A DNA stretch of 28,035 nucleotides from a virus. Position numbers and translations under genes: made by a program. Positions 4,549-10,550 of the stretch are shown one piece after another (the first letter of the stretch is position 1; every line of letters begins with the position of its first letter). The notes under the pieces were generated by a model, which worked only from the letters and a program-made list of their open reading frames with translations, was not told the DNA's origin and did not search any database. The stretch spans positions 1-28,035 of the IMG/VR virus record IMGVR_UViG_3300012355_000003; one strand, given 5' to 3'.

Positions 4549-5997
4549 ATGAGGTTGCTCGACCGACTCGCGGACCGCTACAGCCTGCGGCAGGGGTTCT
4601 GGGAGGGGATGGCCTCCGGCGCCGCCGTGTACATGGGCAACTACGGCGACCCCGGGAAAGAGAAGGCGATCGCCAACCTCGTTGGGGCGGCACGGGACGC
4701 GTACCAGTCCAACGGGGCCGTGTTCGCGGTCAGCCTGATCCGCCTCGCCCTGTTCAGCGAAGCCCGGTTCGTGTTCCAGAGCTTGGTCGACAAGCACACC
4801 TACGGCAGCCAGGACCTGCTGGTCCTCGAAGAGCCGTGGCCGAACTGCACCACCGGGGAACTGCTGGCCCGGATGGAGCAAGACTTCACCGTGGGCGGCA
4901 ACGCCTACCTGTGGAAAGCGGAGGACGACCTGCTCGTCCAGATGCCCCCCGATGAGGTCACCATCATCTCCGAGGAGGTCCGGGGGTCACGCGGCCACTA
5001 CCGCCGCGTTGTCGGCTACGACTGGGACCCCAGTCCGGTCCAGAACGTCGCGCCGGGCTCTGATAACCGCTCGGAGATGGCGCAGACGTTCCCGGTGGAG
5101 GAGGTGGTGCACTGGTCGCCCATCTCAGATCCCCGTGCGAAGTTCCGTGGGATGTCGTGGCTGACCCCGGTCATCCGGGAGATCAGCGCAGACACGGCGA
5201 TGACTTCCTACAAAATCGCGTACCTGGAGAACATGGCCGCACCGAACCTGCTCATCAAGTACCAGCAGAAGCTGCGGCCGGACACGGTGGATGCGATCGC
5301 GGAGCGGATGCACGCCAAGTACGGCGGCAGCCAGGCGTTCCGGACGTTCGTGCTGGACCAGGGCGCCGACGCGACTGTGCTGGACAACAGCTTCGACCGG
5401 CTGGGGTTCGCGGACACCCAAGAAGCCGGCGCGATCCGGATCTGCATGGCCTCCGGGGTCGACCCGATCCTGCTCGGGCTTGGCGGTGCCCGCGCTGCGG
5501 TCTCCTACGAGCAGGCCATGCGGCGGCTCGGGGACGTCACCTTGCGGCACCTGTGGCGCACGGCCAGCGCGGCGCTGCAGAAGCTCGTCCCAGGCGTCCC
5601 GCCGGCGGGGGTGCGGCTGTGGTACGACACCTCCGACATCGCGGCGCTCCGCGCGTCAGAGACCGAGCGGGGGCAGACCTCGCAGGTGCAGGCCGCCGCG
5701 CTGCTCACCGTGGTGCAGGCCGGGTACACGCGGGAGTCAGCGGTCGCGTTCCTCTCCTCCGGTGACGTCAGTCAGTTGGTCCCGGAGCCGCAGGCACCAC
5801 CGCCGGGGGTCAGCGGCCGGGAGACCACCTCAGAGAAGATCAGCCCGCCAGCGGCGGCCAAGCCGATCACCGACGGGCATCCGGGTGGTGAGCCGCCACG
5901 ACCGTCGCAGAAGGTTGGGCCGCCGTCGGGGAACGGGAAGGGGCCGACCCCACGGCAGATGAAGCCGATGCCGCCCGCGCTACTCCGACGGCCCTAG
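4549..5997 (+). CDS. Portal protein
   Basis: A 482-residue HK97-type portal, forming the dodecameric ring at the capsid vertex through which DNA is packaged and to which the neck attaches. Diagnostic segments are FTVGGNAYLWK near residues 108-118, the PPDEVTII strand near 131-138, VVHWSP near 185-190, and the long helix region TSYKIAYLENMAAPNLLIKY near 222-241 that precedes the crown/stem helices. The C-terminal 80 residues are proline-rich and likely disordered. ATG 4549 is preceded by GGGCGAGG. The stop TAG 5995-5997 shares the palindrome CTAG with the stop of the converging minus-strand gene, so the two genes end on top of each other. Confidence 0.92.
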   Translation: MRLLDRLADRYSLRQGFWEGMASGAAVYMGNYGDPGKEKAIANLVGAARDAYQSNGAVFAVSLIRLALFSEARFVFQSLVDKHTYGSQDLLVLEEPWPNCTTGELLARMEQDFTVGGNAYLWKAEDDLLVQMPPDEVTIISEEVRGSRGHYRRVVGYDWDPSPVQNVAPGSDNRSEMAQTFPVEEVVHWSPISDPRAKFRGMSWLTPVIREISADTAMTSYKIAYLENMAAPNLLIKYQQKLRPDTVDAIAERMHAKYGGSQAFRTFVLDQGADATVLDNSFDRLGFADTQEAGAIRICMASGVDPILLGLGGARAAVSYEQAMRRLGDVTLRHLWRTASAALQKLVPGVPPAGVRLWYDTSDIAALRASETERGQTSQVQAAALLTVVQAGYTRESAVAFLSSGDVSQLVPEPQAPPPGVSGRETTSEKISPPAAAKPITDGHPGGEPPRPSQKVGPPSGNGKGPTPRQMKPMPPALLRRP

Positions 5998-6170
5998 CGA
6001 GGCGGGTGCTCTCTGACCCAGCGGTCCCATCGTTCTTGCAGGACGGCCATCTTGGCTTTCCACGCGTCGGTGTGGACAAGCCCCTCGCCGACGTAACCGT
6101 TGTAGCTGGCCAGTTGGTGGAATTCTTCCTCGGTCATGTCTGGGGGCAGTTCGAGCTTGCGGCGTCTCAC
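5994..6170 (-). CDS. 58-aa protein, last gene of the antisense block
   Basis: Reading on the minus strand, GTG at 6170-6168 overlaps the stop of the HNH gene (GTGA) and has a GGGAGG ribosome binding site 5 bases upstream, so it is preferred over the in-frame GTG at 6197. The protein starts RRRKLELPPDMTEEEF and has a tryptophan-rich C-terminus (ERWDRWVREHPPR), probably two or three helices. The stop shares CTAG 5994-5997 with the portal gene stop on the other strand. No family is recognised; the compact size and overlaps suggest co-expression with the HNH and HTH genes. Confidence 0.6.
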   Translation of the reverse strand: MRRRKLELPPDMTEEEFHQLASYNGYVGEGLVHTDAWKAKMAVLQERWDRWVREHPPR

Positions 6171-6574
6171 GGGATCCTCCCGGTTGTCTTGGCCCACTGT
6201 TCGACCTCGGCCCAGTCGAACAAGGGTGAGCGGCCGATGGCCCTAGGAGCGGCACCCGTTCTGTTCTGTTGTGGTTGTCTCCACAGGGCAAGAGCGCTGC
6301 GGCGACTGTTCTCCGAACGGGTGACCGGCTCTAGGTGGGCAGGGTTCACGCAAAGTGTGGTACGGCAGAGGTGGTCAAGGGTCAGGCCCTCAGGGATCGG
6401 CCCCACCAGCAACTCATAGGCGAACCGGTGGGCGACAACGTAGCGGCCACTGTCGAGACGAAAGGTGCCGTACGCGTAAGTGCTGGTCGTAATCCACAGC
6501 CAGCACTCATCCGTTCCGTGTCGATCCACTCGAGCCCAGAACCGCTCTTCAACCGGTGGAGTTGTTCTGGCCAT
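6167..6574 (-). CDS. HNH endonuclease with an HTH-type C-terminal tail
   Basis: Start ATG at 6574 with AAGGAG 10 bases upstream; the longer in-frame extension to 6661 runs through the neighbouring HTH gene and is rejected. Residues about 8-95 form a homing-type HNH domain: FWARVDRHG, CWLW, YVVAHRFAYELL, then LDHLCRTTLCVNPAHLE with D67-H68, N77 and H80 as the metal/catalytic set. Residues about 108-135 (APRAIGRSPLFDWAEVEQWA) do not belong to HNH proteins but look like the last strand and helix of an excisionase/AlpA-type DNA-binding protein. The gene overlaps both neighbours on the minus strand. The chimera may reflect insertion of a homing endonuclease into an HTH gene. Confidence 0.82.
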   Translation of the reverse strand: MARTTPPVEERFWARVDRHGTDECWLWITTSTYAYGTFRLDSGRYVVAHRFAYELLVGPIPEGLTLDHLCRTTLCVNPAHLEPVTRSENSRRSALALWRQPQQNRTGAAPRAIGRSPLFDWAEVEQWAKTTGRIP

Positions 6575-6743
6575 GGGACTCTTGCTCCTTGACCCACTGG
6601 TCGAGAGCGTCCTTTCGGTAGCGCAGGTGCCGGCCGAGCTTGGCGACCGGCGGGCCGGCACCCCCTGCGCGCCACTTGCGGAGCGTCTCCTCGGAGACCT
6701 TGAGATGCGCGGCGGCTTCCTTGATGGTGAGCAGCTCTGGCAT
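6549..6743 (-). CDS. Excisionase-like helix-turn-helix protein
   Basis: A 64-residue protein of the HTH_17/MerR-like excisionase family. LLTIKEAAAHLKVSEETLRKW at residues 4-24 is the winged-helix recognition segment; PVAKLGRHLRYRKDALDQWV at about 32-51 gives the beta wing and final helix. Such proteins act as recombination directionality factors, transcription regulators or accessory binding proteins. No integrase is visible in the window, so an excision role cannot be supported; local regulation is equally possible. It starts at ATG 6743, 12 bases after the PH-like gene stop, and overlaps the HNH start by 26 bases. Family assignment is good, role unknown. Confidence 0.82.
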   Translation of the reverse strand: MPELLTIKEAAAHLKVSEETLRKWRAGGAGPPVAKLGRHLRYRKDALDQWVKEQESHGQNNSTG

Positions 6744-6755
6744 GGCGTCCGGCCC

Positions 6756-7121
6756 CTAGCTGGTTCTCGTGGCGAGCGCGTTGAACCGGGCTGCGAACTG
6801 GCGGGCGCTGGACTGGTGCTTGGGGTCGCCCTGCAACTCGATGAGGATCGTGTACGCGTCGTCGGCGCCGGTGATGGTGAGGAAGATTTGCCGGTCGTCT
6901 CGCTTCTTCTTGAACGCCAGCGCGAACGGGCCGGTGAGGATCATCCGGGTGGCGGTGATCCGCTTCTGGAGCTCACCGACGGACTCAACTGACGCGTGCG
7001 CGCCGGCGACGGGGCCGCTGTTCCCGCGGCCAGACACGGTGCCGTTCTTGACACGGATGCCGAACAGGCGGGCTTGCGCCTCGAACTGTTGCCGTTCGAT
7101 CCAGCCTAGAGCCTTGCTCAT
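6756..7121 (-). CDS. PH-like domain protein, first gene of the antisense block
   Basis: A 121-residue protein starting at ATG 7121 with GGGGAAAGG 6 bases upstream; an extension to 7160 lacks a ribosome binding site. The C-terminal 75 residues follow a pattern I recall from small actinobacterial PH-like proteins: PVAGAHASVESVGELQKRIT, then GPFALAFKKKRDDRQIFLTI and a last helix SARQFAARFNAL. The pattern of several beta strands and one C-terminal helix is consistent with a pleckstrin-like fold. These proteins are usually host-type, cytoplasmic or membrane-proximal, with no established enzymatic activity. It leads an opposite-strand operon inside the phage head module, suggesting a moron-like acquisition. 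Fold assignment is by pattern only. Confidence 0.6.
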   Translation of the reverse strand: MSKALGWIERQQFEAQARLFGIRVKNGTVSGRGNSGPVAGAHASVESVGELQKRITATRMILTGPFALAFKKKRDDRQIFLTITGADDAYTILIELQGDPKHQSSARQFAARFNALATRTS

Positions 7122-7225
7122 GTGGGGCCTTTCCCCTGGGCGATTCTGTGGTCGCAGCATGTCACTAACCGTCGCTGTACGCCATAGTCGGTGGGTAACG
7201 AATCGGTACCGGAAGGGGCCCGTCG

Positions 7226-8353
7226 ATGGCGCTCGCCCATGAGAAGGTCGGCCACACCGAACAGGGCCTCTGGCACCACAAAGGCATGCAGCTCCCAGCG
7301 TTCGTGCAGCACATCGCCCGGGATCTCATGGCCGAGCGGGGCATGGACGAATCCCGCGCCATTGCCACCGCGATCGCGCTGATCAAGCGGTGGGCCGCCG
7401 GCGGTAAGGATGTCAAGCCAGAGACCAGAGCCAAGGCCGTCGCGGCGCTGGCGGAGTGGGAAGCGCTCAAAGCCAAGGCAGGGGCATCGAAAGGAAGCGG
7501 GAGGATGACCGACACCATCGAGCAGGTGACCTTCGAGCCGAAGGTGTCCTATCGGGTAGCGCCGCTTGAGGACATCCAAGTCCGCTCCACTGGCGATGGT
7601 CGAACCGTCGAAGCCTACGCCGCCGTCTTCGATGCCTCGGCGGAGATCCACGACCAAGACGGCGACTACATGGAGATCCTTGACCGCACCGCCTTCAACC
7701 GGGCGATCACCGACGCTCAACCCAGCGGCACCCGCAGCCGCTGGTCCATCCGCGTGCTCTACAACCACGGCATGAATCTCCACGGCGGACCATCGGAACG
7801 CTACAGCGTTCCGATCGGAACCCCGCTGGAGGTCCGCGCCGACGGTCGCGGTTTGTATACCGTGACGCGCTACCACAAGACGCCGCTCGCGGAAGAGATC
7901 CTCGAGGCCATCAGGGAAGGCTCGATCGACGGCTACTCCTTCTCTGGACAGTTCCGCCGCACCGACCCGATCGGCCCCCGACCATTCCGGCGCAATCGCA
8001 GTGGTGAGTTGCCGGTGGTCCGTCGACTCGAGTCGACCCTGCGGGAATTCGGGCCGACGCCATTTCAAGCCTACAAGCCGGCGGCGATCACCGGTGTGCG
8101 CAACGTCGAGCAGCTCGCCGCAGAAATCACAGCGATGCCATACGAGGAGCGTATTCGCCTCGCATCGCTGTTCACGGCCGAGCCTCTGTCAGAGAGGTCG
8201 GTCGCCGACGCTCCCGAAGAGGAATCGGGACTCGTCGCCGAGGACTCGCGCCCCCACGGTGGGGAGATGCGCTCCGGTCGGCCCCCCCGTGAGGAACTGA
8301 TCGCCCAGCGGGCGGCGTTCCTCATCCGCCATGGAGGAGGCATCGGTGGCTGA
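7226..8353 (+). CDS. HK97-type prohead protease with N-terminal extension
   Basis: The 375-residue protein has two parts. Residues 1-90 carry a helical module (LPAFVQHIARDLMAERGM, SRAIATAIALIKRWAAGG, then RAKAVAALAEWEALKAK) often fused to or encoded near actinophage capsid proteases. Residues about 94-260 are the herpesvirus-assemblin-like serine protease that removes the capsid delta domain: YAAVFD, H181 in VLYNHGM and S238 in DGYSFSGQF are the expected catalytic His and Ser. The C-terminal 100 residues are charged. ATG 7226 is preceded by GGAAGGGG. An internal ATG 7505 with GGAAG and GGGAGG just before it could give a shorter, protease-only form. It precedes the capsid gene. Confidence 0.9.
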   Translation: MALAHEKVGHTEQGLWHHKGMQLPAFVQHIARDLMAERGMDESRAIATAIALIKRWAAGGKDVKPETRAKAVAALAEWEALKAKAGASKGSGRMTDTIEQVTFEPKVSYRVAPLEDIQVRSTGDGRTVEAYAAVFDASAEIHDQDGDYMEILDRTAFNRAITDAQPSGTRSRWSIRVLYNHGMNLHGGPSERYSVPIGTPLEVRADGRGLYTVTRYHKTPLAEEILEAIREGSIDGYSFSGQFRRTDPIGPRPFRRNRSGELPVVRRLESTLREFGPTPFQAYKPAAITGVRNVEQLAAEITAMPYEERIRLASLFTAEPLSERSVADAPEEESGLVAEDSRPHGGEMRSGRPPREELIAQRAAFLIRHGGGIGG

Positions 8354-9923: not shown

Positions 9924-10550
9924 ATGGAAGAGCGTACCTGCTCGGTTGAGGGCTGCGGCCGTACCGCTCGCCGAGGCAACACCATCTGCAAACTTCACTA
10001 CAACGCGGAGTGGCGCAGACGCCAGGGACCATGCCGGATCGACGGTTGCGAACGCCAAGTCGGTCAGCGCGGGCTGTGCAGTGCCCACTACCAGCGTTGG
10101 CGTCGAGGCCAGGACTGGCAAGCCGCCATCCCGCAGTACACGAAGCGTGATGGACTCTGCGCAGTCGAAGGTTGCGAGCGGCCCATCCAGGCTCGCGGCT
10201 ACTGCACCATGCACTACCAGCGGACGCTTCTGAAGGGTGATGCCGGTCCGGTCGGGATGCTCAAGGCGTCGCGCGGCGCTGGTTCATCTTCTCGTGGCTA
10301 CCGTTACCTGACGGTCGCCGGTCGCCGGGTCGCTGAGCACCGCTACGTCATGGAGCAGATGCTCGGTCGCCCGCTGGAGCGCTGGGAGACGCCGCATCAC
10401 AAGAACGGCCGCCGCGCCGACAACCGGCCAGTCAACCTCGAACTTTGGGTGAAGCCGCAACTCGCCGGCCAGCGTGTCGAGGATCTGGTGGCGTTCGTGG
10501 TCGAGCACTATCCCTCCGAAGTCCGTGAGGCGCTGGCGGCTCGCCAGTAA
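9924..10550 (+). CDS. Free-standing HNH homing endonuclease with zinc-knuckle repeats
   Basis: A 208-residue protein with AAGGAGGG 8 bases before ATG 9924. The first 100 residues contain three copies of a cysteine/histidine module (C-x4-C ... C-x2-HY) at about 6-26, 37-56 and 79-98, likely zinc-binding DNA-contact modules. The HNH nuclease follows: RVAEHRYVMEQMLGRPLERW at about 135-154, then HHKNGRRADNRPVNLEL at about 158-174 with H158, H159, N167 and N171 as key residues, and a C-terminal PQLAGQRVEDL segment common to this family. Such enzymes cut alleles lacking the gene and spread by homing. Placement between two hairpins, interrupting the head genes, fits a mobile insertion. Confidence 0.88.
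   Translation: MEERTCSVEGCGRTARRGNTICKLHYNAEWRRRQGPCRIDGCERQVGQRGLCSAHYQRWRRGQDWQAAIPQYTKRDGLCAVEGCERPIQARGYCTMHYQRTLLKGDAGPVGMLKASRGAGSSSRGYRYLTVAGRRVAEHRYVMEQMLGRPLERWETPHHKNGRRADNRPVNLELWVKPQLAGQRVEDLVAFVVEHYPSEVREALAARQ

Follow-up and report, generated by a model that had tools for sequence, protein, structure and literature searches.

Organization of the antisense block

The window, which is the whole stretch of DNA analysed here, was a virus record of 28,035 bases. Four minus-strand genes were located between the genes for the portal protein and the head maturation protease, preceded by a conserved element. The features of the locus are the following:

4549–5997, plus strand: portal protein, left flank (Pfam Phage_portal, E 4e-31)
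5994–6170, minus strand: p58, a 58-aa protein with a GTG start, last gene of the block (homologues in inserts of relatives)
6167–6574, minus strand: HNH_3 endonuclease, 135 aa, optional passenger (Pfam HNH_3, E 4e-13; phrog_826, E 2e-35)
6549–6743, minus strand: HTH_17/excisionase-like DNA-binding protein of 64 aa, encoded by the conserved gene of the core (Pfam HTH_17, E 6e-16)
6756–7121, minus strand: PH-like protein, 121 aa, exchangeable first gene (phrog_26783, E 4e-15)
7144–7206, minus strand: conserved element, about 60 bp, ahead of the first gene of the block (alignment across relatives)
7226–8353, plus strand: head maturation protease (S78), right flank (Pfam Peptidase_S78, E 3e-10)

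All four minus-strand frames of the first-pass annotation could be found between the portal and protease genes, and each start was preceded by a plausible ribosome binding site, as had also been claimed; in block order, the putative sites were GGGGAAAGG, AGGGG, AAGGAG and GGAGG. The genes had been described as overlapping, which was true of the HTH/HNH and HNH/p58 pairs, while the PH-like and HTH genes were spaced 12 nt apart. The interval assigned to the block, 5994–7121, contained the four frames but not the upstream element at 7144–7206, so that the unit lies partly outside it. The p58 and portal genes converge on one common CTAG (stops at 5994–5996 and 5995–5997) without a spacer.

The coding status of the PH-like, HTH and p58 genes was evaluated by dN/dS (NG86), the HNH gene having no close relative for comparison. 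The ratio for the PH-like gene in the minus frame was approximately 0.17 between the window and its relative L009, with 10, 6 and 32 changes at the three codon positions. For the HTH gene, values of 0.16 against L005 (165 nt) and 0.10 against the more distant phage L079 were obtained, and p58 gave about 0.20–0.28 between relatives. The concentration of changes at the third position of the minus frame indicates that these three are genes rather than chance frames in GC-rich DNA. A lack of purifying selection had been named beforehand as grounds for rejecting the proposed cassette; all three genes were under such selection.

The window had no DNA similarity to annotated phages, and no credible match to RNA families was obtained in the antisense block. 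With PADLOC, the only matches were a generic one to the mad1 HTH and a weak one to a homing endonuclease. A consensus scan detected no terminator-like site on the minus strand in the region 5500–7500; in actinobacterial terminators the T run is often missing.

Portal–protease junction in related phages

A portal search of IMG/VR yielded 33 loci. The expectation that portal and protease normally adjoin was borne out by 12 relatives (L006, L007, L008, L010, L011, L014, L017, L018, L021, L023, L025 and L034), in which the distance from portal stop to protease start was −8 to +3 nt. Against these 12 empty junctions stood six occupied by an antisense insert, and these made up the entire nearest clade (the window, L002, L003, L004, L005 and L009; portal 68–86% identical). 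Carriage of the block by all relatives in the same place had been put forward as a finding that would count against a mobile cassette. The relatives did not all carry the same block, and the content of the insert also differed within the clade, comprising a PH-like protein, a DUF4352-like lipoprotein, another lipoprotein or an endonuclease VII. The inserts of L005, L002 and L003 had a lipoprotein as the first gene, followed by the HTH gene. The L009 insert consisted of endonuclease VII, PH-like and p58 genes, and that of L004 of a single, different lipoprotein gene, neither cassette having an HTH gene. Lipoboxes (LAAC, AAAC or LTGC) were present in the first or last genes of the relatives' inserts. 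The structural model of the lipoprotein had low confidence (pLDDT 52), so its matches to YcdA, MPT63 and YjhA were taken as a hint only. Among distant relatives, same-strand inserts occupied the junction in L013, L015, L016, L019 and L026, and an antisense HNH gene in L024.

The exchangeable first gene

The product of the first gene was 89% identical to its L009 homologue. At the DNA level, the match between the window and L009 began at the start codon and broke off close to the stop, and this restriction to the gene indicates exchange gene by gene. The AlphaFold model (pLDDT 71.5) predicted a fold for which PH or PH-like domains made up nearly the whole of a second structural match list (best Z 6.4, rmsd 3–4 Å). 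The name PH-like given at first pass is favoured by this predicted fold and match list, but the protein had neither a Pfam match nor a significant Foldseek match. The family likewise gave no match when compared by sequence with solved structures. The homologue in phage Jablanski matched DUF4429, in a different part of the protein from the PH-like homology. The further description as a protein of host type was not supported: relatives were detected in 4 of 396 bacterial genomes sampled from the phylum (E ≤ 0.001) and in none of 18 prophage-bearing genomes.

The window protein was soluble, with no hydrophobic N-terminus and no signal peptide. The signal peptide and lipobox characteristic of Ltp-type proteins were absent from this first gene, lipoproteins occurring in the relatives only, which makes a role at the envelope weaker here than in the lipoprotein-bearing relatives.

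The upstream element and the HTH_17 gene

The element could be aligned upstream of the first gene in the window, L002, L003, L005 and L079/L081, and by its core only in L116; in the window the core, TAGTGMCATRCTGYGA, lies at 7152–7167. It was retained in the window, L002, L003 and L005 although the first gene of the window is unrelated to their lipoprotein genes. A pattern scan of all IMG/VR contigs for the core returned only contigs of the clade set and one further phage (L079/L081). Each contig had one copy, which rules out a dispersed operator. No match to the sigma-70 consensus was found in the element, despite its conservation before exchangeable first genes; a CATGCT hexamer is a possible −10. 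A 10-bp direct repeat, as in a BldC-like operator, was rejected as well: lag 10 was the highest in all five sequences, but with p 0.04–0.4 against shuffles.

The HTH_17 protein matched TIGR01764 (excisionase family, E 3e-9) and phrog_66 ("excisionase and transcriptional regulator"), in agreement with its earlier designation as excisionase-like. Against the curated BldC model it scored 23.2 bits at a cut-off of 77 and is not a BldC-family member by score. Element and HTH_17 gene were jointly present in six of six cassettes and jointly missing in two of two (L009 and L004, whose contigs lack the element), the six element-bearing contigs coming from closely numbered metagenomes, which makes the sample narrow. 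This co-occurrence, together with the protein family, points to the HTH_17 protein as the probable regulator of the cassette, acting on the element, and the element itself is likely to be the promoter/operator. Separate control of the block, as proposed, is made probable by the conserved upstream element that accompanies the HTH gene. The four genes did not behave as the single unit they had been taken for, since the conserved part is the element with HTH_17, and PH-like, HNH and p58 are each optional.

Occurrence of the core in other phages

The element and HTH gene were also found in two phages of other kinds. In L081 (contig IMGVR_UViG_3300036860_000436, of which L079 is a part), the HTH gene was the best DNA in common with the window (165 bp, 95% nucleotide identity); the element (53 bp, 85%) and a few short patches in other genes were shared too. 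The gene between element and HTH, encoding a 100-aa protein with two hydrophobic stretches, was unrelated to that of the window. This cassette lies antisense in the tail module, flanked by tail genes and upstream of the tape measure gene; its neighbours are a phrog_11991 gene on one side and, on the other, an HNH gene that follows the gene for the major tail protein. L116, a 49-kb contig with an integrase, was obtained by a lipoprotein profile search. Its cassette consisted of the element core, a lipoprotein gene and the HTH gene, adjoined the tape measure gene in antisense orientation, and shared 762 bp at 71% identity with the cassette of L003.

With L081 and L116 included, what stays constant is the element plus the HTH gene, a pair that occupies three sites in phages of three kinds. 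Sequence comparison supports selection on the antisense genes, the existence of empty junctions, gene-by-gene exchange, joint travel of the element with the HTH gene, and three insertion sites. The idea of a mobile, moron-like cassette is well supported by the empty junctions, the swapping of content gene by gene and the recurrence of this core at other sites. What recurred was the core and not the four genes as a fixed unit. Because the relatives keep the element and regulator while swapping the first gene, and two unrelated phages have the kit among their tail genes, the cassette resembles a portable slot whose genes would serve the phage during dormancy in its host.

The HNH and p58 genes

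The HNH_3 domain scored 49 bits, above the gathering score of 24.8. The HNH chimera suggested at first pass is plausible: residues of about 110–134 showed a weak similarity, at E 0.1–1 only, to the C-terminal wing that AlpA/excisionase HTH proteins of unrelated phages possess. In tblastn searches with two nuclease queries, which other nuclease types would escape, the HNH query was unmatched in the inserts of L002, L003, L004, L005 and L009 and the endonuclease VII query in those of L002, L003, L004 and L005. A second HNH gene, beside the capsid gene of the window (9924–10550), was 42% identical to the HNH abutting the cassette in L081. Homologues of p58 were present in the antisense inserts of L003, L005 and L009. 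Small p58-like proteins were also encoded on the sense strand upstream of the portal in distant relatives (L018, 1801–2010; L029, 279–479).

Lysogeny context and proposed function

Several homologues of the PH-like protein are encoded in lysogeny regions. Gp25 of AbbeyMikolon adjoins the immunity repressor, gp44 of Jablanski lies two genes from it on the integrase side, and orf2 of bIL309 lies between the integrase and a cI-like repressor, a gene order kept in most Lactococcus prophage relatives. A tyrosine integrase was encoded on the contigs of L002, L004, L009 and L116; resolvase-type integrases were not found in the relatives, and the 28-kb window fragment contained no integrase. Accessory loci characteristically lie antisense among lytic genes, and one of them has its own promoter (PMC7067206); the lipoprotein Ltp is expressed from the prophage and blocks DNA injection (PMC3952083). 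Because of the lysogeny position of the PH-like homologues, the integrases, the antisense position and Ltp, the cassette is probably expressed in lysogeny, and we infer a role in exclusion or host modification.

The favoured interpretation, to which a probability of about 0.6 was assigned, is that a temperate actinobacterial phage carries the block as a moron, or lysogenic-conversion, cassette in antisense orientation, with a control site, a swappable first gene and a small HTH_17 regulator. The element of about 60 bp would serve as promoter and operator, most likely bound by the cassette-encoded HTH_17 protein, which would set cassette expression. The first gene would be an exchangeable slot, filled by the PH-like gene here and, in other phages, by the gene for a membrane protein with two helices or for a lipoprotein, either DUF4352/MPT63-like or of another kind, with HNH, endonuclease VII, zinc-ribbon and p58 genes as optional passengers. 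Transcription would probably occur in the prophage while the head operon is silent, and the product may act at the host envelope, superinfection exclusion being the most likely outcome. A more tentative extension, to which we give slightly less than even odds, is a portable expression unit of temperate actinophages in which the phage-borne element, with the HTH_17 protein as its dedicated regulator, forms a fixed dock. Such a dock would travel among late-gene junctions (the portal/protease gap and two positions within the tail module), keep its antisense orientation throughout, and acquire different host-envelope or PH-type effector genes through recombination at gene boundaries.

Alternative explanations

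The HTH_17 protein carries an HTH_17/Xis-type domain, as expected of an excisionase, and its TIGR01764 and phrog_66 matches would also suit a recombination directionality factor, the block then being a displaced part of the integration module. Excisionase duty is made less likely by the distance to the integrase, which exceeds 10 kb both in L002 (47–49 kb versus 19 kb) and in L116 (about 21.6 kb versus 34.7 kb). Moreover, L009 and L004 have an integrase on their contigs but no HTH gene in the cassette, and the HTH gene accompanies the upstream control element rather than the integrase. This explanation is considered quite unlikely. The window has an HNH gene, L009 an endonuclease VII gene, L081 an HNH gene abutting the HTH gene and L024 an antisense HNH gene at the junction. 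These nucleases could indicate a homing-endonuclease cassette, which would spread through the nuclease and carry its remaining genes as cargo with no selected function. The two tblastn nuclease queries remained unmatched in the inserts of L002, L003, L004 and L005, however, the L116 cassette is a bare two genes, and the common core is element plus HTH rather than a nuclease. L116 and L003 even suggest horizontal spread of nuclease-free cassettes, and purifying selection on the PH-like, HTH and p58 frames speaks against mere cargo, leaving homing as an unlikely driver.

The function could also reside in the antisense transcript: in lysogeny, convergent transcription from the element may damp the portal gene and the packaging genes upstream of it, or else late read-through may silence the block in lytic growth. 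The shared CTAG without spacer and the lack of a detected minus-strand terminator-like site would fit, and superinfection exclusion in BTP1 involves an RNA that is antisense to structural genes (PMC7067206). Purifying selection and exchange at whole-gene boundaries argue that the encoded proteins matter, so that a purely transcript-based role seems rather improbable; an effect of this kind is compatible with the moron cassette. Ordinary head-module accessory genes inverted by chance might be considered in view of the same-strand inserts in distant relatives. Those inserts are unrelated in sequence, whereas the cassette keeps its antisense orientation and its conserved element at all three of its sites, and chance inversion, already disfavoured, is very improbable.

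Comparison with known systems

STMMW_20121 of ST64B resembles the cassette in being antisense to lytic genes, apparently separately controlled and variable between relatives (PMC7067206), but here the element and HTH_17 are retained while first genes are swapped, and three sites carry the core. Ltp of TP-J34 (PMC3952083) is, like the proteins of L002, L003, L005, L116 and L004, a temperate-phage lipoprotein encoded in moron-like surroundings; it differs in that the relatives' lipoprotein is predicted to have a DUF4352/MPT63/YjhA-like fold, the cassette lies in the head or tail module instead of the lysogeny module, and the window has a PH-like gene instead. Defence operons of the Sbash 30/31 type are prophage-mediated, with known cases expressed in lysogeny, and are also variable genes of temperate actinophages (PMC6426596), but they are located near the genome centre beside the prophage ends, whereas the present cassettes occupy head or tail modules. 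The PH-like domain has homologues in Orf2 (Lactococcus phage bIL309) and gp25 (Streptomyces phage AbbeyMikolon), yet these lie beside integrase or repressor genes, and Orf2 has a SHOCT tail. BldC of Streptomyces (PMC5859096) is similarly a small, wHTH-only MerR-like protein, and the strongest self-match of the element is at a 10-bp lag; the low HTH_17 score (23 versus 77 bits) and a repeat not clearly beyond chance set it apart.

The block had been thought possibly undescribed. Antisense accessory loci among lytic genes are already known (PMC7067206), and the new part is the portable element–regulator core with an exchangeable first gene. As far as the open-access literature was searched, a fixed core of this kind that occurs at several late-gene junctions and carries exchangeable cargo is undescribed. 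Accessory genes that are expressed in lysogeny are difficult to recognize in sequence data, and the conserved element with HTH_17, by marking exchangeable cargo, could provide a search handle for superinfection-exclusion and lysogenic-conversion genes in actinophages. The cassette also offers a testable case in which a regulator and its promoter would relocate together from one structural-gene junction to another.

Additional features of the related head modules

A small zinc-ribbon-like protein was encoded near the portal end of the antisense inserts of L005 (1128–1483) and L002 (4660–4818), and the L005 insert contained a second short lipoprotein gene ending at the portal stop. A sense-strand gene for an alanine/lysine-rich protein of about 165–175 aa, perhaps scaffold-like, recurred in the portal–protease gap of L013, L015, L016, L019, L024 and L026, and was part of a longer frame in L019. 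The protease had a separate N-terminal domain (about 100 aa; 7226–7560 in the window), which was missing in L010, L011, L014 and L034 and was joined by variable spacers in L017 and L023. A group I intron (RF00028, 62 bits, above the gathering score) was detected within the major capsid gene of L031 (12135–12394; identical in L032), the gene being split into two frames around it.
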